From a virus, in the IMG/VR virus record IMGVR_UViG_3300030329_001058, positions 1-21,008 of that record: DNA of 21,008 bases; one strand, 5' to 3'. Positions 789-13,158 of the stretch are shown in pieces. The notes below the pieces were generated by a model. It was not told the origin of the DNA, did not search any database, and saw only the letters and a program-made list of their open reading frames with translations. Each line of letters starts with the position of its first letter. Position 1 is the first letter of the stretch. The position numbers and the translations under genes are program-made.

Positions 789-1016
789 TTGAAAAGAACA
801 ACATCTACTATCCCATTTGGGTATGAACTATCAGAGGATAAAAAAGAATATATTCCTATAGAGAAGGAATTAGAATTGTTAGAAAAGGCGTTTACTTTCG
901 CAACTAACTGTGGGCCTGCAAAAGCAGCACGATGGCTGTCCACAGCATCGGGTAGGAGAATATCCAACCCCGGTTTGACAAAACGAATGAAAATAGGTGT
1001 ACATTTAGATAGATGA
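789..1016 (+). CDS. Small HTH-like protein, candidate small terminase subunit
   Basis: A protein of 75 residues. The only usable start is TTG at 789, immediately after the in-frame stop of the previous gene; no ATG is available upstream of the conserved-looking part. The body (PFGYELSEDKKEYIPI, a helix to about residue 41, then AKAARWLSTASGRRISNPGL at 44-63) has the look of a compact helix-turn-helix. Its end overlaps the large terminase start as ATGA (1013-1016), the usual position for a small terminase subunit, which would recognise the packaging site and regulate the large subunit. The same pattern (PxGY, then helices) also resembles the helical domain of serine recombinases, but no catalytic domain is present. 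Position is the stronger argument; the functional call is an inference. At 75 residues it is short for a small terminase. Confidence 0.5.
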   Translation: MKRTTSTIPFGYELSEDKKEYIPIEKELELLEKAFTFATNCGPAKAARWLSTASGRRISNPGLTKRMKIGVHLDR

Positions 1017-2701
1017 CTGAAGAAATAGAAAAACCTAGAAGAGGAAGGCCTCCAAAGAAAGAAGGAGAGCCTAAAACGAGCTATAACTGGTCTATGAAGA
1101 TGAAAGCTAGACTTGCAACTCAAAGACAGCTTTCAGAAAAACGTAGAAAAGCGGAGAAATTGACTAAACAGGCTAAGAATGCCAGAAGAAAAGTAAAAGA
1201 AGCTCAAGAATCTGCCCAGAAAATAGACAATGCTCTAAAGGGAAAACAGAAGTCCGTTAGTGTAATTACCAACGAGGACTTGAAGAAGGTGCCTCTAGCT
1301 GTACGAGAGCATTTACAGCATCATGATGTAGTGTTCAGGCCTAATGAAGGCCCTCAAACTACATTCCTAGAGTCACCCGAAAGAGATGTTTTGTACGGAG
1401 GAGCAGCAGGAGGTGGGAAATCCTATGCATTATTAGCAGATGTTCTGAGAGATGCATCAAATCCCAACCATAGAGGCTTGCTGTTAAGAAGAACACTAGC
1501 TGAATTGACCGAATTGATAGACAAAAGTAAGCAACTCTATCCAAAAGCCTTTCCCGGAGCTGTGTTTAAAGAAGCAAAAGCTACTTGGCACTTTCCATCA
1601 GGGGCTAGAGTATGGTTTTCATACGTAGATGATGACCGAGACGTTACCAGATATCAAGGACAAGCGTTCAATTGGATAGGAATAGATGAAATTACACAGT
1701 ATCCCACGCCTTACGTGTGGAATTACTTACGTTCTCGACTGAGAACTACTGATAAAGATTTAGGAATGTACATGAGATGTACAGCAAACCCGGGAGGAGT
1801 AGGTGGTTGGTGGGTAAAAAAGATGTACATCGACCCAAATCCACCAGATGACCCATTTTGGGCGAAGGATTTTGACACGGGTAAGGTTTTAAAGTACCCA
1901 ACTAACCATCCAAGGGCCGATCAGCCGTTATTTTTACGCAAATTCGTGCCTGCGAGGTTGACAGACAACCCATATCTGTTTGAAGATGGTCAATATGAGG
2001 CGATGTTGATGTCTCTGCCTGAAATAGAGAGAAAAAGGCTGTTAGAAGGGGATTGGGACGTGGCAGATGGCTCTGCTTTTACTGAATTTAGCCGTGAAAC
2101 CCATGTTGTAGAGCCTTTTGAAGTGCCATTAGGCTGGACAAGGATACGATCAGGCGATTATGGGTATTCTTCACCTTCTTGTATTCTCTGGGGAGCTATA
2201 GACTGGGATAATAACATATGGATTTATAGAGAACTCTATGTAAAAGGGTTCACAGGTGAAAGATTAGCAGATATGATACTACAATTAGAAAAAGAAGACC
2301 CTCAGATGCAGTTGACTACTTTAGACTCGTCCTGCTGGAACAAAACTGGATTAGGGCCTTCCATAGCAGAAACAATGATAAGGAGAGGAGTCAGGTGGAT
2401 ACCTGCAGACAGGAACAGAATTGCAGGGAAGATAGAAGTACACAGAAGATTAGCCTGTGATGACCTTGGTAATCCTAGGGTTCGCTTTTTTTCTACGTGC
2501 AACAATACAATCAGGACTTTACCTACATTACCCATATCTAAGACTAATCCTGAAGATGTGGATACGAAAGCTGAAGACCATGCTTACGATGCGTTGAGGT
2601 ATATGGTAATGAGTAGGACTTTAATGAATGTTCATTCTCCGCATAGGATGATGAAGCAGACACAGCAATATGAACCACAAGATCAGGTATTTGGGTATTA
2701 A
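1013..2701 (+). CDS. terL: Terminase large subunit (packaging ATPase/nuclease)
   Basis: The motor that pumps DNA into the prohead and cuts concatemers. Of 562 residues, the ATPase domain carries Walker A GGAAGGGKS (129-137), Walker B WIGIDEIT (221-228, D225 and E226) and the coupling motif TANP (257-260). The RNase-H-like nuclease follows with acidic residues at D382 (RSGDYG), D437 (TLDSS) and D522/D526 (DHAYDALRY), the expected order for the family. Unusual is the first ~115 residues: a lysine/arginine/alanine-rich, probably coiled-coil extension with an AT-hook-like RRGRPPKK at 9-16. The ATG overlaps the upstream stop as ATGA, implying coupled translation. The gene is GC-richer than its downstream neighbour (25 G+C in 1741-1800, 27 in 2401-2460). 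Confidence 0.95.
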   Translation: MTEEIEKPRRGRPPKKEGEPKTSYNWSMKMKARLATQRQLSEKRRKAEKLTKQAKNARRKVKEAQESAQKIDNALKGKQKSVSVITNEDLKKVPLAVREHLQHHDVVFRPNEGPQTTFLESPERDVLYGGAAGGGKSYALLADVLRDASNPNHRGLLLRRTLAELTELIDKSKQLYPKAFPGAVFKEAKATWHFPSGARVWFSYVDDDRDVTRYQGQAFNWIGIDEITQYPTPYVWNYLRSRLRTTDKDLGMYMRCTANPGGVGGWWVKKMYIDPNPPDDPFWAKDFDTGKVLKYPTNHPRADQPLFLRKFVPARLTDNPYLFEDGQYEAMLMSLPEIERKRLLEGDWDVADGSAFTEFSRETHVVEPFEVPLGWTRIRSGDYGYSSPSCILWGAIDWDNNIWIYRELYVKGFTGERLADMILQLEKEDPQMQLTTLDSSCWNKTGLGPSIAETMIRRGVRWIPADRNRIAGKIEVHRRLACDDLGNPRVRFFSTCNNTIRTLPTLPISKTNPEDVDTKAEDHAYDALRYMVMSRTLMNVHSPHRMMKQTQQYEPQDQVFGY

Positions 2702-2704
2702 AAG

Positions 2705-4711
2705 ATGGTAAAAGAAGCACCAGTTATTATATTACAATTTATGGAAAAATTATTTCCAGATGGTAACATACCATCGGAAAATGATATTCTTGATAAGATA
2801 AGAAAAGGTAACTACACTGTTAGGGACTCTCTTATTTATAAATTATATCAAGAAGGTGTGCAATTTGGATACGGTGACAAATTTACTGATCCAGATGCTG
2901 TAAAAGTGTTAGAAACAAAGTTTGGAACAGGCTCGGGAGGCCCACAAGTTTTTGAAATAGCAACAACATTAGAAAGAGCAGATGCTTTAGATAAACCATA
3001 CTTTGAATTTTTTGGTGTAAGTCCTGCAGAATCTGAAGCAAAAACAGGAACTAAAGGTATTAGAAAAACTCATCAAAACTTAGATAATATTACAGCACTT
3101 GCATATTCTGAAGCTGGCAAGAAAATGCCTAGAAGCCCAATTACCACAGGTTACAAAGAAAAGGCTAAAACTAAAAAAATAAAAACAAAAGCAGAAATGG
3201 GTAGATACCCTCCAATTAAAACCATTTGGGAATCTGTTACTAAGGCTGCTAGTAAAATGCCTAAGAACATTTCTACTGCTTTTATATTTCACAATACAAA
3301 CCCAATGAGAATTGAAGATTTATTAGGTTTTACGGTAGATCCTGAAGTTTCTCAAAGGGGAACAAAAGGTGTTTCTAGACCTCTATTACAAAAACTACCA
3401 ACCGGAGAGTTTGAACTTACTCTACCTGCAAACCCAGTCGGTAGAGAGAAAAAATATTTTAACTCTTTTATATTAAATGAATTACAAACAAATATGGTAG
3501 AATCTTTGTACGAAGATGCTATGAAAGAGTACCAAGAAAAAATGAATTACCTATCTAAAAAAGGTAATACCATAGAATCCTATAATGCAGAATATAAAAA
3601 TAAAATAAAATATCCAAACGGACAGATATTTGGTAATATAAGTAAAAAAGCATATAACGATGCTGTTGTAAACAATTTAGGCCCGATACTTAATAAATAT
3701 TCTAGTGTTGTAACCGGTGTAAACGGTGCGGCAATAGTAAGAAAAATACAATCAGACACACTTATTAAATTATATGGTAAAGAAGCAGCTCAATTGTTTT
3801 TAGGTCATAAGTTAGCTTCAAAAGATGTAATAGACAAACACTACAGGTCTCAAGGATTGGTTAGAGACCCTCTAGCAACAAAACATGCAGCAAATGATGT
3901 TATTAACATGTATACTAGTAAGTATACAAACACAATAGGTCAACTTTTAAACTTAAAAGATGGTTTTAAAATTTTATCTCTATCTAATGCTAATATATCT
4001 AATAATAAAATAAATTTAGACATTAATCCTGAAAAAAATCAATCAACAGGGAAAATTATTAAAAAAACTGAAGAAGAAATTAGATTAGATCAAAAAGAAA
4101 GAGAAGCACAGACAAAAAAAAATATTGCTCAACTAAAAAAAGAAACAGTTGAAACAGGTCTAGATACCACAGCAAAAGAAAAACTGTTAATACAACAACA
4201 AGAAGATTTAAAACAAACAAAACAACAAATATTAGAACAGACTCCTGCTAAAGTTGATGACGCAAAAGTAGACAGTAAGATGAGAAAAAAATTAGACGAT
4301 ATTGAAAAGGCTGGAGGTTCATGGAAAGACCTTTTTAAAAAAGGTGGAGGCAAACTTGGACTAATAACTGGTATTGGAACTGGTATTGGAACAGGAGTAG
4401 GTTTAACAATGTTTTCAAAAGATGCTAGAGCAGGAGATGTTATAAGTGCTATTGCCCCTATAGGAATGGAGCCTAGTTACATAGGAGGAAGAGGTCAAGG
4501 ACTTAAATACCCCGGAACTGACAATATATTAACGGGTGAAGAAGAGCAACTACTACGAGAAAGAAATCCAGAATTGTACGAACAAATGGAGCTTGCTTTT
4601 AAAAGAGACCAAGCATACGAACAAGAACAAGAAAAGATAAAAAAAGAGTTTAAGAAAGAAGAACAGGCAAAGGAAATGAATAGATTATTTTCTGAACCAT
4701 TAATGCCGTAA
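2705..4711 (+). CDS. Large protein with diverged tyrosine-recombinase-like domain
   Basis: A protein of 668 residues between terminase and portal, starting 3 bases after the terL stop with a weak ribosome site. Residues ~170-385 can be laid on a tyrosine recombinase catalytic domain: the box I-like segment NPMRIEDLLGF (199-209) gives Arg202; a beta-rich stretch around 225-252 has candidate lysines (K230, K250); VRKIQ gives Arg346; LFLGH gives His368; KHYR gives Tyr380. The Arg346-His368 distance of 22 equals that of lambda Int (R311-H333). The His normally three before the second Arg is Ala343, and about 45 extra residues separate the two arginines. After the domain come a Gln/Lys/Glu coiled coil (450-515), a GIGTG-repeat hydrophobic stretch (551-570) and a charged helical tail (610-660). 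It is A-rich (14 G+C in 3541-3600). The recombinase call is a motif-level inference; activity is uncertain. It could instead be a structural or ejected virion protein that kept the fold. Confidence 0.6.
   Translation: MVKEAPVIILQFMEKLFPDGNIPSENDILDKIRKGNYTVRDSLIYKLYQEGVQFGYGDKFTDPDAVKVLETKFGTGSGGPQVFEIATTLERADALDKPYFEFFGVSPAESEAKTGTKGIRKTHQNLDNITALAYSEAGKKMPRSPITTGYKEKAKTKKIKTKAEMGRYPPIKTIWESVTKAASKMPKNISTAFIFHNTNPMRIEDLLGFTVDPEVSQRGTKGVSRPLLQKLPTGEFELTLPANPVGREKKYFNSFILNELQTNMVESLYEDAMKEYQEKMNYLSKKGNTIESYNAEYKNKIKYPNGQIFGNISKKAYNDAVVNNLGPILNKYSSVVTGVNGAAIVRKIQSDTLIKLYGKEAAQLFLGHKLASKDVIDKHYRSQGLVRDPLATKHAANDVINMYTSKYTNTIGQLLNLKDGFKILSLSNANISNNKINLDINPEKNQSTGKIIKKTEEEIRLDQKEREAQTKKNIAQLKKETVETGLDTTAKEKLLIQQQEDLKQTKQQILEQTPAKVDDAKVDSKMRKKLDDIEKAGGSWKDLFKKGGGKLGLITGIGTGIGTGVGLTMFSKDARAGDVISAIAPIGMEPSYIGGRGQGLKYPGTDNILTGEEEQLLRERNPELYEQMELAFKRDQAYEQEQEKIKKEFKKEEQAKEMNRLFSEPLMP
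4367..4390 (+). repeat. 12-base tandem duplication inside the recombinase-like gene
   Basis: The unit actggtattgga occurs twice in perfect tandem (4367-4378 and 4379-4390), followed by a degenerate partial copy. It encodes the GIGTG repeats in the hydrophobic glycine-rich segment, suggesting the segment grew by slippage. Confidence 0.85.
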
Positions 4712-4742: not shown

Positions 4743-4976
4743 ATGCCATACGGTAATCCAAAAGCATATAAATCAGACTACATCATGGGCCAGATGAAGA
4801 AGCAAGGCGAAATGAGTGAAGTTGGTGAAAAGCTATACAGAGAAAAACTGGATCCGAAAGTAATGGGCGAGAACAGCGGAGCATTTAAGCAGACTGAAGA
4901 TTCTAAATCTGCTTCTGGTAGTGCTCATATGAAGCAAGCCGGTTACATCATGGGTCAATCAAAAAGAGTAAAATAA
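4743..4976 (+). CDS. Small hypothetical protein with duplicated YIMGQ motif
   Basis: A hydrophilic protein of 77 residues with a very strong ribosome site (AAGGAGGT at 4731-4738), suggesting high expression. The motif YIMGQ occurs near both ends (residues 13-17 in SDYIMGQMKK and 68-72 in AGYIMGQSKR), so the protein has a near-palindromic layout with a charged middle. No membrane segment or known domain is visible. It ends 13 bases before the portal ATG. A head or portal accessory role is suggested only by place and expression signal; I do not recognise the family. Confidence 0.8.
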   Translation: MPYGNPKAYKSDYIMGQMKKQGEMSEVGEKLYREKLDPKVMGENSGAFKQTEDSKSASGSAHMKQAGYIMGQSKRVK

Positions 4977-4989
4977 GTTAGGATAAAAA

Positions 4990-7110
4990 ATGAGTGATCC
5001 TCAAGACGTATCAGAAGACATGTCTCTTGAAGATGCACCCGGACTAGTAGGGTACATCAAAGAGAAACAACGAGAAGCTGAAGACGGTAGGCAAGTACAT
5101 GAAGAACGATGGTTAAAAGCTTATAAAAACTTTCGAGGTATTTATGATAGTACTACGCAATATACTACAAAAGAAAAATCAAAAGTATTTATAAAAATAA
5201 CCAAGACAAAAGTACTTGCTGCCTACGGGCAGATTGTAGATATCTTATTTGCTAATAAGAAATTTCCAATTACTGTGGAGCCTACACCTGTGCCTGAAGG
5301 AATAGCAGAATTTGCACATATGGTAACTCCTCTTGATCAAGCTGTTCCTACTGATCCTTATGGTTTTAAAGGAGACGGAAGAGAATTACCTCCCGGTGGT
5401 TTAGAAGCTAATGCAAATAATTTAGACTACCTAGGAGGTTTATCATCAAAATTTGAAGGTGCACCTATTGCTGAAGGTAAAGCTAGGATGGGTGAACCAC
5501 AAATATCTCCTGCACAGGAAACAGCTTTGAGGATGGAAAAAGTAATACACGATCAATTGATGGGTTCAAATGCTATTTCTACACTTAGAAATGCCATATT
5601 TGAATCTGCTCTATTAGGTACAGGAATTATAAAAGGCCCATTTACACATACAAAAACTGTACATAAATGGGAGAGTGTAGAAGGAGAAGGTAAAACATAC
5701 ACACCTTATTTTAAAGACGTGCCTAAAATAGAATCTGTATCATGTTGGGATCTCTATCCTGATCCTCTAGCAACAAATGTAGATGACTGTGATTATATAA
5801 TTCAAAGACACAAGATGAATAGAGCACAGCTTAGAAATTTAATGGACATGCCAATGTTCAATCCTGATGCTATTCGAGAAGTTTTAGAAGGTGGCGGTAA
5901 CTACCAAGATAAGTATTATGAGAGTGTAATACGAGATGAAGAACAAGTACAAACAGGGTCTGCTGATAGATACGAAGTTTTAGAATACTGGGGTTGCATG
6001 GATTCTACTTTTTTAGAACAAGTTGGTGTAAACACTTCTGAAGTAGATGATTTAGGACAAGTACAGGCAAATATTTGGATATGTGGAGGACAGGTTTTAC
6101 GAGCAGTAATAAATCCTTTTGTACCTATGCGTATGCCTTATCAAATATTTCCTTATGAAATAAGCCCTTATCAAATATGGGGCATTGGAATACCAGAAAA
6201 TATGGAAGATGCACAGATGTTAATGAATGGACATGTGCGTATGGCAATTGATAATTTATCTCTGGCAGGTAATATGGTTTTTGATGTTGATGAAACATCA
6301 TTAGTTCCCGGACAGAATTATGATATATTTCCGGGTAAGATATTCAGAAGACAGTCTGGCGTTACAGGAACTGCAGTGAACGGGATTAAATTTCCTAACA
6401 CTGCAGGAGAAAACATACAGATGTATGATAAAGCTAGACAGTTGGCTGATGAAGAAACTGGGATTCCCAGTATTATGCACGGACAGACAGGCGTTACTGG
6501 CACGGGCAGAACAGCAGCTGGCCTATCAATGTTGTTAGGATCAGCTGGCCTATCAATAAAGACTGTTATTAAGAATTTAGATGACTATCTTTTGAAACCA
6601 TTGGGTGAAGCACTATTTCAATGGAACATGCAGTTTAATAATGAACAACCTGATATTGTAGGAGATTTAGAAATAAAACCAAAAGGTGTATCTTCTGTAA
6701 TGCAGAAAGAAGTTCGTTCTCAAAGATTAACTGCTCTATTGCAAACAGTGGCTAATCCTATGTTAGCTCCTTTTATTAAGATTCCTAATCTTATAAAAGA
6801 ATTAGCAATTTCACAAGATATTGATCCAGACAGTCTGGTAAATGATATTAACCAAGCTCAAATATACGCAGAAATGCTGAAAGGAATAATGCAAAATGTC
6901 CAACCAGAACAACAACCAGAATCAGGAAGTCCTCAAACAATTAGCCCCGGTGGTCAACAACCCACAGGTATGGGAGCCCCTCAACAAACTGCTGCAGGGC
7001 CTTCACCTACAGACATTACAGGGACTGGTAACGGCACAATCGGAACTGGAGGTGTACCGACTGCAGGGGAGAGCCAGTTTGCTGGCAATGCTCCTCAACT
7101 TGAAGACTAA
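4990..7110 (+). CDS. Portal protein (P22-like)
   Basis: The dodecameric DNA channel at the unique head vertex, partner of terminase, scaffold and connector proteins. It has 706 residues, near the size of P22 portal (725). Recognisable parts are the N-terminal helical region with ERWLKAYKNFRG (39-50), the KTKVLAAYGQIVDILF helix (72-87), the mixed clip/wing region (175-380), the PENMEDAQMLMNG segment (402-414) and the long crown/stem helices near GRTAAGLSMLLGSAGLSIKTV (506-526) and DDYLLKPLGEALFQWN (531-546). The last ~70 residues (636-706) are a Gln/Pro/Gly/Thr-rich, probably disordered tail, and exactly this tail is overprinted by another gene. Ribosome site AGGA at 4980-4983. Confidence 0.85.
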   Translation: MSDPQDVSEDMSLEDAPGLVGYIKEKQREAEDGRQVHEERWLKAYKNFRGIYDSTTQYTTKEKSKVFIKITKTKVLAAYGQIVDILFANKKFPITVEPTPVPEGIAEFAHMVTPLDQAVPTDPYGFKGDGRELPPGGLEANANNLDYLGGLSSKFEGAPIAEGKARMGEPQISPAQETALRMEKVIHDQLMGSNAISTLRNAIFESALLGTGIIKGPFTHTKTVHKWESVEGEGKTYTPYFKDVPKIESVSCWDLYPDPLATNVDDCDYIIQRHKMNRAQLRNLMDMPMFNPDAIREVLEGGGNYQDKYYESVIRDEEQVQTGSADRYEVLEYWGCMDSTFLEQVGVNTSEVDDLGQVQANIWICGGQVLRAVINPFVPMRMPYQIFPYEISPYQIWGIGIPENMEDAQMLMNGHVRMAIDNLSLAGNMVFDVDETSLVPGQNYDIFPGKIFRRQSGVTGTAVNGIKFPNTAGENIQMYDKARQLADEETGIPSIMHGQTGVTGTGRTAAGLSMLLGSAGLSIKTVIKNLDDYLLKPLGEALFQWNMQFNNEQPDIVGDLEIKPKGVSSVMQKEVRSQRLTALLQTVANPMLAPFIKIPNLIKELAISQDIDPDSLVNDINQAQIYAEMLKGIMQNVQPEQQPESGSPQTISPGGQQPTGMGAPQQTAAGPSPTDITGTGNGTIGTGGVPTAGESQFAGNAPQLED
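6515..6557 (+). repeat. 16-base direct repeat, 27-base period, in portal gene
   Basis: The 16 bases cagctggcctatcaat occur at 6515-6530 and again at 6542-6557. They encode AGLS twice in the conserved-looking portal helix, nine codons apart. It may be a small in-frame duplication or simply convergent codon choice for a repeated peptide. Confidence 0.8.
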
Positions 7111-7147
7111 TTTTGATCAAATGAAAAAGGAAGATAAGAAAAAATAA
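6896..7147 (+). CDS. Overprinted small helical protein in the portal tail
   Basis: A protein of 83 residues starting at ATG 6896 with ribosome site AAGGA at 6881-6885. It overlaps the portal gene by 215 bases in the +2 frame and ends as taATG with the next gene (A at 7147 shared). After a Gln/Asn-rich start, residues 11-67 look like a folded helical hairpin: VLKQLAPVVNN, VWEPLNKLLQGLH (25-37), then LQGLVTAQ and RLQGRASLLAMLL (55-67), with a charged KKEDKKK end. The VWEP-L... RLQG pattern recalls small proteins coded after portal genes in other podoviruses, whose role I do not know. Here the portal frame is low complexity while this frame looks structured, which argues that it is a true gene and not a shadow. 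Confidence 0.7.
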   Translation: MSNQNNNQNQEVLKQLAPVVNNPQVWEPLNKLLQGLHLQTLQGLVTAQSELEVYRLQGRASLLAMLLNLKTNFDQMKKEDKKK

Positions 7148-8568
7148 TGGCAACGGTAGATCAAATTCTTAATTTAAATTTTGACCAACAGTATGGGCTT
7201 AACAAAGGTTTGCCTACTGAAGAAATTGCTATTTCTGAAAGAGGTTTTAAAGAACTACCTGTTAAAATTAAATTAGCTGAAAAAAGATCAGATCAAGAAG
7301 AATCAGATGTTGATGAGAAAAAGGTAGATGATGCTACAAAAGCCTATAAAGCATTAGTAGGAGAAACTAAAATAGGAGATATACAGCCTGTTAATTTAGG
7401 AGTATCAAGATTACCTAACATAGAAGGACTGCCTCAAATGGCTTCTATAGATCCTAATGCCAAGTTAGATTTTAGTGCTGCGGATGTAGTTATACCTAAA
7501 CAAAAAGATCCTACTTTTATGGAAGCTAATGAGATAGAATTTGAACCTATGCAAGATTTAGCAGTTCAAAGTTCTGCAGGAATAAAAGCAGCAGAGTTTG
7601 TTTCTAGTGATACTGGTCAGGATGTCATATCTACAGGTATGGATTTTTTAGGTATAAGTAACAAGCCTGTAAAAGAAATAGGAAGTTATCAACTTCCCGG
7701 TTATCAGTCAGCTGCACAAGGTTCTCAAGCTATGAAATTAGCTGATATGAGAGGTAGTTCTAGTTATTATCAAACCTCAGGAGCACCAACTCTTACAGGT
7801 CAGTTAGCTGGAGTAGGTAGTGCTGCTTTAGGTGCTTATTCTGCATATGATGCTTTAAAAGGAGGTATAGACAGCCCACAAGAAGGATTACAATTTGTTG
7901 GAGGTACTTTAGGAACTCTTGCAGGATTACAAACAGCAGGCATCATGGCAGGTTCACAATTTGCCACTATGATGGCAGGGCCTGTGGGATGGGCCATAGC
8001 AGGTGCTAGTTTTTTGGCAGCATCAGGTATTCTTGGAGGTAAAGGTAATAGTAAACCTCCTATGGGTGGTGTAGAATTTAGATTGGTTGATGATGCAGGT
8101 AAACAATATGCCTATCCACAAGAAAATAAAAATTTAAAAATAAAAGCTGTAAACGCCCATAGTTACAATGGTTTTAATTCAGGTGCTATGCTAAACCAAG
8201 CAAACAAAAACGTAGATTACATGTATGCATTTGCAGATCATTTTGGTTTGAAAGTAAATGAAAAAGCATGGTCACAGGCAGCGTTTGGAGGAGATGGTGT
8301 AGATAAATACATGCCTAGAGGAGGACAAGCTCCATATAGAAGTGTATTAGAAAGAATAGACTCTGCAGGAGATGGTTCTGTAAGTCCAAGTGAGTGGTTA
8401 CGACATGCCATGGAATATGAAGGGCCAAATGGAGAGAGAATAGTAGAAGGTGATATTTACAAAGGAACTAAAATAGGCCCCGATGGAATGCCAATGAAAG
8501 TAGGATATAAAACACAAGAAGCATTTCAACAGGCAGTGGCTAATTTTAATCAACAATTTTACGCATAG
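7147..8568 (+). CDS. Putative virion protein with hydrophobic core and EF-hand-like loop
   Basis: A protein of 473 residues, starting one base inside the previous stop. Residues 1-200 are acidic and polar. Residues ~215-298 are an unusually Gly/Ala-rich hydrophobic stretch (LAGVGSAALGAYS, FVGGTLGTLAGL, MAGPVGWAIAGASFLAASGILGG) that could insert in membranes. Residues 300-473 look globular and contain DSAGDGSVSPSE at 405-416, which fits the EF-hand loop (D at 1, D at 5, G at 6, hydrophobic at 8, E at 12) except for Ala at position 3. The place after the portal and the amphipathic glycine-rich middle suggest an internal head or DNA-ejection protein, as in P22-like phages, but no sequence family is recognised. 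Confidence is high for the gene and low for the function. Confidence 0.75.
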   Translation: MATVDQILNLNFDQQYGLNKGLPTEEIAISERGFKELPVKIKLAEKRSDQEESDVDEKKVDDATKAYKALVGETKIGDIQPVNLGVSRLPNIEGLPQMASIDPNAKLDFSAADVVIPKQKDPTFMEANEIEFEPMQDLAVQSSAGIKAAEFVSSDTGQDVISTGMDFLGISNKPVKEIGSYQLPGYQSAAQGSQAMKLADMRGSSSYYQTSGAPTLTGQLAGVGSAALGAYSAYDALKGGIDSPQEGLQFVGGTLGTLAGLQTAGIMAGSQFATMMAGPVGWAIAGASFLAASGILGGKGNSKPPMGGVEFRLVDDAGKQYAYPQENKNLKIKAVNAHSYNGFNSGAMLNQANKNVDYMYAFADHFGLKVNEKAWSQAAFGGDGVDKYMPRGGQAPYRSVLERIDSAGDGSVSPSEWLRHAMEYEGPNGERIVEGDIYKGTKIGPDGMPMKVGYKTQEAFQQAVANFNQQFYA

Positions 8569-12186: not shown

Positions 12187-13158
12187 ATGGCTACAATGGC
12201 AAGAGCTGGAGGCTACAATAACCTTGCAAAAGGAAATTGGGCACCAGCTATATACAGTCAAAAAGTTCTCAAATATTTCCGTAGGGCATCGGTTGTAGAA
12301 GCAATTACAAATACTGATTATTCCGGGGAAATCGAGAATTTTGGCGATACTGTCAACATAATCAAAGAACCAACAATTACTGTTGCTTCTTATGGTCGTG
12401 GTACGACAGTAAATACGCAAGAGCTTACTGATGATCAAATCCAGATGACGGTAGATCAAGGTAACTATTTTGCATTTAAGGTTGATGATATCGAAGAGAG
12501 ACAGTCTCATGTAAACTGGGAAGCTCTTTCTACATCAGCTGGTGCATATGCACTAAAAAAGAACTACGATTACAATGTTCTTAAAGCGATTGCTGATAAT
12601 GCAGCTACCGATAGTAATTTAGGTACTGCAGGATCTGCGGTTTCTATCAATGTAGTCAATGAAGCGTTGAATATGCTAAGTACAGCACAACAAATTCTTG
12701 ATGAAAATGATGTACCTGAAGAAAATCGCTGGTGTGTGGCACCTCCACAATTCTGGACACAAATAAGATTGGCAAAAACTGACGCAGCTGGAACACCTGC
12801 AATATTGGATGCAGCAGCTACAGGTAATCAATCTGCTTTGATGAACGGAAGAATAACTGACAGAAAAATACATGGTTTTGATTTATTTCAATCCAATACT
12901 ATGGTCGTAGGTTCAGCAGGATCAGCGGGAGCTGCAACTTTTGGGCCTTCATCAACTTCTGGTGAAATGTACGTTCTGTTTGGTCATATGTCTGCTGTAG
13001 CAACAGCATCTAGTATCGCCAAAACAGAAGTAATTCGTGATCCAGATAGTTTTGCAGACATAGTACGTGGACTTCATGTATTTGGTCGTAAAGTATTGCG
13101 TGGATCTGGTTCAGGCTATAAAGGCGTGTTCGCAGGTGTCGCAGATTTTAACTCATAA
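12187..13158 (+). CDS. Major capsid protein (HK97 fold)
   Basis: The shell subunit, 323 residues, with a consensus-strength ribosome site AAGGAGG (12176-12182), fitting the most abundant virion protein. Features of the podovirus HK97-fold coat group: N-terminal arm WAPAIYSQKVLKYFRRASVV (18-37), E-loop/P-domain segment GDTVNIIKEPTITVASYGRG (53-72) with NTQELTDDQIQMTVDQ, VDDIEERQSHV (99-109), the long spine helix around AYALKKNYDYNVLKAIAD (120-137), and the C-terminal DIVRGLHVFGRKVL strand. No protease gene or cleavable N-terminal domain is visible here, so assembly probably relies on the separate scaffold. Confidence 0.92.
   Translation: MATMARAGGYNNLAKGNWAPAIYSQKVLKYFRRASVVEAITNTDYSGEIENFGDTVNIIKEPTITVASYGRGTTVNTQELTDDQIQMTVDQGNYFAFKVDDIEERQSHVNWEALSTSAGAYALKKNYDYNVLKAIADNAATDSNLGTAGSAVSINVVNEALNMLSTAQQILDENDVPEENRWCVAPPQFWTQIRLAKTDAAGTPAILDAAATGNQSALMNGRITDRKIHGFDLFQSNTMVVGSAGSAGAATFGPSSTSGEMYVLFGHMSAVATASSIAKTEVIRDPDSFADIVRGLHVFGRKVLRGSGSGYKGVFAGVADFNS

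Follow-up and report, generated by a model that had tools for sequence, protein, structure and literature searches.

A tyrosine-recombinase-like protein encoded between terL and portal of HMO-2011-type marine podoviruses is exchanged in modules

The gene between terL and portal

The window, i.e. the whole stretch of 21,008 nucleotides that was analysed, is a 21-kb virus fragment carrying a late operon. It stems from an HMO-2011-type marine podovirus, and its TerL and portal proteins are about 50% identical to their counterparts in HMO-2011-type phages (SAR11, SAR116 and Roseobacter phages). The gene under study (2705..4711, plus strand) encodes a tyrosine-recombinase-like protein of 668 aa, as delimited by its ORF and by alignments of homologues. 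It starts 3 nt behind terL (1013..2701; phrog_979, 5.6e-61) and is followed after a gap of 31 nt by a conserved 77-aa ORF (4743..4976), which separates it from portal (4990..7110; phrog_332, 9.8e-76). Next to portal lies a gene for a 473-aa protein (7147..8568), the second hypervariable gene of the operon and a candidate ejection protein; all these genes are located on the plus strand. Further downstream we found, in this order, a 121-aa ORF, a lysozyme, proteins of 584 aa and 305 aa and the major capsid protein (12187-13158), with later structural genes beyond. With terL and portal as flanking genes, the location in a late structural operon between terminase and portal is as the original prediction had described it. 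The gene had also been described as AT-richer than terL, which holds for the whole gene (32.1% G+C vs 42.2%). However, the 14 G+C per 60 nt quoted for it is a local low, the mean being 19.3 per 60 nt in comparison to 25.5 for terL. Scans for terminators, promoters, Rfam families and tRNAs as well as a PADLOC scan revealed nothing tied to the recombinase-like gene.

Several small reading frames were noticed in the vicinity. The 77-aa protein has no family match; it carries a GYIMGQ-like motif near each end, and its gene contains a direct repeat (4779-4792 / 4944-4957). An 83-aa ORF in another frame (6896-7147) overlaps the 3’ end of portal by approximately 215 nt and has a counterpart at the same place in the related contig L002 (12190-12441), making a conserved overlapping gene possible. 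Upstream of terL a 75-aa ORF (789-1016), also present in L002 (6076-6303), gives a weak match to the integrase family phrog_95 (E 0.28); it presumably resembles the recombinase region of large serine recombinases (IPFGYELSED...ARWLS...). It is preceded by a small Lys-rich protein (450-788) without family match, the C-terminal end of which reads GGKVKKMMGGGKVHMKKKKK.

A wider view of the gene content comes from two related phages represented by long contigs of 48 and 55 kb. Each carries a family A DNA polymerase as well as a match to the DnaJ CxxCxGxG motif, and a DNA polymerase bearing this motif is a hallmark of HMO-2011 (PMC6918029). Both also encode endonuclease I and a class II ribonucleotide reductase. 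In cultured HMO-2011-type phages the recombinase-like gene is absent from the terL-portal locus, and the integrase of HMO-2011 is an ordinary one located elsewhere.

Fold and catalytic residues of the protein

On its own the window protein has no match in Pfam, PHROGs, PDB sequences (phmmer) or phage records, and its sequence retrieves two close relatives only. Because it is nearly invisible to sequence searches, we assembled the family through the neighboring terL, which yielded 80 loci. In 58 of them the gene for such a protein begins within a few nt of the terL stop codon, with an ORF of 70-80 aa and portal coming next. Most complete homologues comprise 540-745 aa, and most pairs are only 15-40% identical. 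When searched against the PDB, the family profile matched a XerC-like protein (4a8e, 3.1e-7) and lambda Int (5e-5). A match to the integrase family PF00589 had been suggested as a check of the recombinase assignment, and the outcome was divided: 13 of 49 homologues matched PF00589 (best 2.1e-6), but the window protein itself did not. The integrase family phrog_1 was likewise matched by 13/49 homologues, and phrog_3203 gave a weak match in relatives (E 0.009-0.017). Weak matches to FabG (via a GxGxG segment), phrog_1440 (E 0.006-0.02) and MtrG were discarded as low-complexity or unsupported.

The full protein as well as residues 1-396 were modelled by AlphaFold, and the models were compared to known structures using Foldseek, a check likewise named in advance. 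XerA, XerH, MRSA Int and lambda Int headed the matches, and among viral proteins mainly integrases came out on top, so that recombinases lead the lists and the model does not lack their fold. The best PDB matches reached probabilities of up to 1.00 at E-values of 0.004-0.02, none below 0.001, with modest TM-scores. Since these values are individually modest, the weight of the comparison lies in the unanimity of the top matches. The blocks between residues 171 and 330 were mostly modelled at a pLDDT of 76-94.

Four parts can be distinguished along the protein, all encoded on the plus strand. Residues 1-168 (2705..3208) form helices in the model (residues 5-138), and the linker at about 113-166 has a pLDDT <50; this helical part is probably DNA-binding, similar to a core-binding domain, and is followed by the low-confidence linker. 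The catalytic domain spans residues 169-390 (3209..3874). It contains the box I Arg R202 (3308..3310), the beta-hairpin Lys K249/K250, the box II Arg R346 (3740..3742), the box III His H368 (3806..3808) and Y380 (3842..3844) as the candidate nucleophile, with A343 at the position of the box II His. R202, A343, R346, the LGH with H368, and Y380 are all found where they had been placed from the outset, R346 and H368 lying 22 residues apart. Residues 391-540 (3875..4324) are predicted to form long helices (446-484, 489-511 and 519-535), probably a coiled coil. The C-terminal tail, residues 541-668 (4325..4708), includes a Gly-rich segment and is exchanged independently of the recombinase half. 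The GIGTG repeat reported for this segment is real and corresponds to a tandem 12-nt repeat (4366-4389), but the hydrophobicity of the Gly-rich segment is weak, with a hydropathy maximum of 1.42 over 17 residues.

We analyzed residue conservation in an alignment of 45 same-locus homologues trimmed after the catalytic domain, in which the mean column identity is 16%. Across these sequences no positions but M1, R202, R346 and Y380 are invariant, so the motif is no product of chance; in the 19 closest homologues H368 joins them. Position 368 is occupied by His in 27 and by Arg in 16 of the 45 sequences (His or Arg in 43/45), and about one third of the wider family shows Arg instead of the box III His. 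The conservation expected in homologues was therefore confirmed for R202, R346 and Y380, and for H368 among the closest members, some wider members carrying Arg. In a second alignment, homologues were clustered at 60% identity and realigned. Both Arg residues were present in all 47 clusters and the Tyr in 44; in the three exceptions a Trp is aligned at the Tyr column and a Tyr is located a few residues upstream. Lys occupies the hairpin position in 31/47 clusters, and does so without exception in a subset of 10 members. In place of the box II His the family mostly has Thr, Lys, Ser, Ala or Tyr, and His itself occurs in a single cluster (1/47). Short proteins from four loci (L047, L048, L051, L056) were aligned at first and then removed, as the motifs are absent from them.

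Taken by its features, the window protein has both box Arg residues, the Tyr at the nucleophile position, the box III His, the hairpin Lys and the catalytic fold. In these features it agrees with the tyrosine recombinase superfamily (PF00589), the exception being the box II His, which is no strict requirement. XerA, XerC-like proteins, XerH and lambda Int share the fold with it and carry R, Lys, R, H and Tyr in the same order and spacing. The window family differs from them in the replaced box II His, more than 250 additional C-terminal residues and the fixed location of its gene at the terL-portal locus. HMO-2011 and CRP-3 encode ordinary integrases (L088, 1180-2058, and L173, 448-1521, respectively) of the same superfamily and phage type, and in them the box II His is replaced as well, by Met and Arg, respectively; CRP-3 Int reads RxxR at box II. 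CRP-3 integrates into tRNA-Met (PMC6918029). Both integrases comprise 292-357 aa, are encoded upstream of replication genes and lack a long tail, whereas the window gene is long, hypervariable and part of the late operon. Archaeal integrases without box II His are also known, of the SSV1 type (R...KxxR...Y) and of the pNOB8 type (R...YxxR...Y) (PMC8371274); these share the missing His with the window family but are archaeal and have no virion-like tail.

We conclude that the protein very likely has the tyrosine-recombinase fold with conserved catalytic residues, and judging from these residues it is likely an active recombinase. It had been suggested that the fold might merely be reused for structure. 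The missing box II His and the long, structural-looking tail would suit a purely structural or DNA-binding head part that has lost catalysis. However, some active relatives also lack the box II His, so its absence does not imply catalytic loss, and two Arg and a Tyr that are invariant in 45 very divergent members are hard to explain without catalysis. As no residues of the whole protein are better conserved than the catalytic ones, we consider a structure-only role very improbable.

Locus and exchange of the gene

An independent scan with one conserved recombinase motif, which made no use of terL, identified 68 further loci. Wherever the flank was present on the contig, terL immediately preceded the gene (62/62) and portal lay downstream of it (59/59). 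The gene is therefore locked to the terL-portal locus; since a single motif was used for the scan, other branches of the family could sit elsewhere. No relative was detected by TerL or by the recombinase among 84,980 genomes of bacteria and archaea, using scans on short patterns with limited sensitivity. A sister clade (L047, L049 and others) carries no recombinase-like protein at the locus, having either a short unrelated protein or nothing there, so the wider group does not depend on the recombinase-like protein. In six cases (L047, L048, L051, L055, L056, L057) this unrelated protein has 202-355 aa, with a short hydrophobic stretch as well as a GGKVK...RKP motif at its C-terminal end.

Although the location is fixed, the gene itself is replaced between nearly identical phages. 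Recombinase-like versions only 20-35% identical are found in phages whose TerL proteins are 97-100% and whose portal proteins are 70-97% identical. Examples are L008 and L024 (TerL 99%, portal 97%, recombinase-like protein 30%), L021 and L023 (100%, 91% and 30%) and L029 and L037 (99%, 89% and 35%). DNA identity ends sharply at the start of the gene and returns at or near its end, the right edge of the exchange varying between the stop codon and positions inside the tail. Similarity of the recombinase half hardly follows that of TerL (rank correlation 0.09, as compared to 0.77 for portal). The two halves also behave differently: between the window and L010 the core is 19% and the tail 77% identical, and between the window and L002 the values are 91% and 31%. 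The recombinase half and the C-terminal tail are thus exchanged separately, as modules. Within alleles the gene is under purifying selection, with dN/dS values of 0.10-0.51 in 15 of 16 pairs (in the remaining pair dS is 0.02). Purifying selection and exchange together indicate that the versions are functional and are swapped whole or in halves. The tail correlates weakly with portal (0.20 vs 0.09 for the core), and since this is not robust we do not take it as evidence for docking.

If the recombinase, as a self-mobile cassette, brought about its own exchange between terL and portal, one would expect the observed replacement of whole genes, a left edge falling sharply on the start of the gene, and the locus lock. 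Yet the right edge is variable, a repeat search revealed neither a convincing att-like site nor a common site at the exchange edges, and the post-portal gene undergoes exchange to the same extent with no recombinase of its own. Self-mobility is for this reason improbable in our view.

Homologues of the post-portal gene (7147-8568) are as variable as those of the recombinase-like gene. The protein in the window contains a long Gly/Ala-rich hydrophobic stretch and has no family match. One homologue bears an SLT transglycosylase domain; T7 gp16 likewise has a transglycosylase domain. With TerL controlled for, we found no significant covariation between the recombinase-like and the post-portal protein (partial rank correlation 0.06-0.09).

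Possible role in the virion

In P22-like phages the genes for ejection proteins count among the most mosaic and variable of the virion, and superinfection exclusion is directed against these proteins (PMC8954989, PMC10883804). The ejection proteins of podoviruses (T7 gp14-gp16; P22 gp7, gp16 and gp20) are large and very variable mosaic proteins with genes in the virion operon, and some contain enzyme domains, for example a transglycosylase (PMC8954989, PMC10883804). The window gene shares several of these traits, as it lies in the virion module near portal and is highly variable with exchange of modules. The equally variable post-portal gene fits the pattern of ejection proteins, too. There is also a difference: no recombinase domain is described for ejection proteins in these two papers. 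Arguments against packaging and ejection are the weak hydrophobicity of the Gly-rich segment, where ejection proteins would have a membrane-active or transmembrane one, and the lack of covariation with the post-portal protein; the overall reading is further weakened by the modest Foldseek scores and by the sister clade devoid of the protein. By analogy with the variable ejection proteins of podoviruses we favour an ejected virion protein with an active recombinase, and of the functions proposed initially, packaging and delivery fits best. Put together, a tyrosine recombinase whose active site (R...K...AxxR...H...Y) is conserved and which bears a coiled, Gly-rich tail would be made late, packaged and injected, for which this analogy suggests an even chance; packaging and injection of the protein as such may be about equally probable.

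The recombinase-like protein would be produced late together with TerL and portal, and its tail would dock it inside the head near portal. It would then be ejected with the DNA, similar to the internal proteins of podoviruses. In the new cell the recombinase might cut and rejoin DNA, be it the incoming phage genome, the host chromosome or the DNA of a competitor. The fast exchange of alleles could reflect pressure at entry, i.e. exclusion by the host or by rival phages, or a host-specific target site. The DNA-recognising half would accordingly be a swappable payload on a docking tail, and the virion-delivered, active recombinase an effector that acts, as infection begins, on the DNA of the host, of a rival phage or of the incoming genome. 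We assign a probability of roughly 0.4 to this reading.

A recombinase made late could also act unpackaged in the producing cell, for example by resolving concatemers or multimers before TerL cutting. The position directly after terL and the conserved active site would agree with such a function. Site-specific resolution in the producing cell should, however, favour a stable enzyme and site, whereas alleles are exchanged between near-identical genomes, and the repeat search did not reveal a conserved site-like repeat. Moreover, endonuclease I and a Holliday junction resolvase family are already present in the two long relatives, and the sister clade does without the recombinase-like protein. 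Resolution of genome multimers, another of the initial proposals, has found no positive support, and a role in the producing cell seems doubtful to us.

Integrase modules are often exchanged in general. A lysogeny integrase relocated into the late operon, with alleles differing as their attachment sites differ, might therefore show a similar pattern. Besides this protein no tyrosine recombinase was found in the long relatives, and CRP-3, a phage of the same type, does integrate. Nevertheless, the gaps on either side of the gene, 3 and 31 nt, are too small for an intergenic attP, and the two long relatives contain no repressor, excisionase or other lysogeny family among Pfam matches and the best 25 of 51 PHROGs families. 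No prophage with this TerL or recombinase was found in the 84,980 genomes, at the limited sensitivity of these scans, and the integrases of HMO-2011 and CRP-3 differ in position and lack the tail. The attP and the accompanying lysogeny genes that characterize a temperate integrase module were thus not seen beside the gene and among the listed families of the two long relatives. Given the lack of room for attP, of lysogeny Pfam families in the two long relatives and of any prophage in these scans of limited sensitivity, an ordinary lysogeny integrase is unlikely.

A search of the open-access literature brought up no description of a recombinase that is encoded between terL and portal or contained in virions, and the arrangement in marine phages appears to be undescribed. 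The locus lock, the exchange of cassettes and the exchangeable tail are new here. If the virion-delivered recombinase is indeed packaged, it would provide a new way to act on DNA in the earliest phase of infection, by means of a site-specific recombinase brought along by the virion. In that case HMO-2011-type phages of the subgroups IV-X, described without identifiable lysogeny genes (PMC9038755), may carry recombinases missed by current profiles. The locus furthermore represents a natural library of dozens of recombinases that share 15-40% identity and have kept their catalytic residues, in genomes that otherwise match. It could serve to study the drivers of exchange and to find new recombinase specificities.
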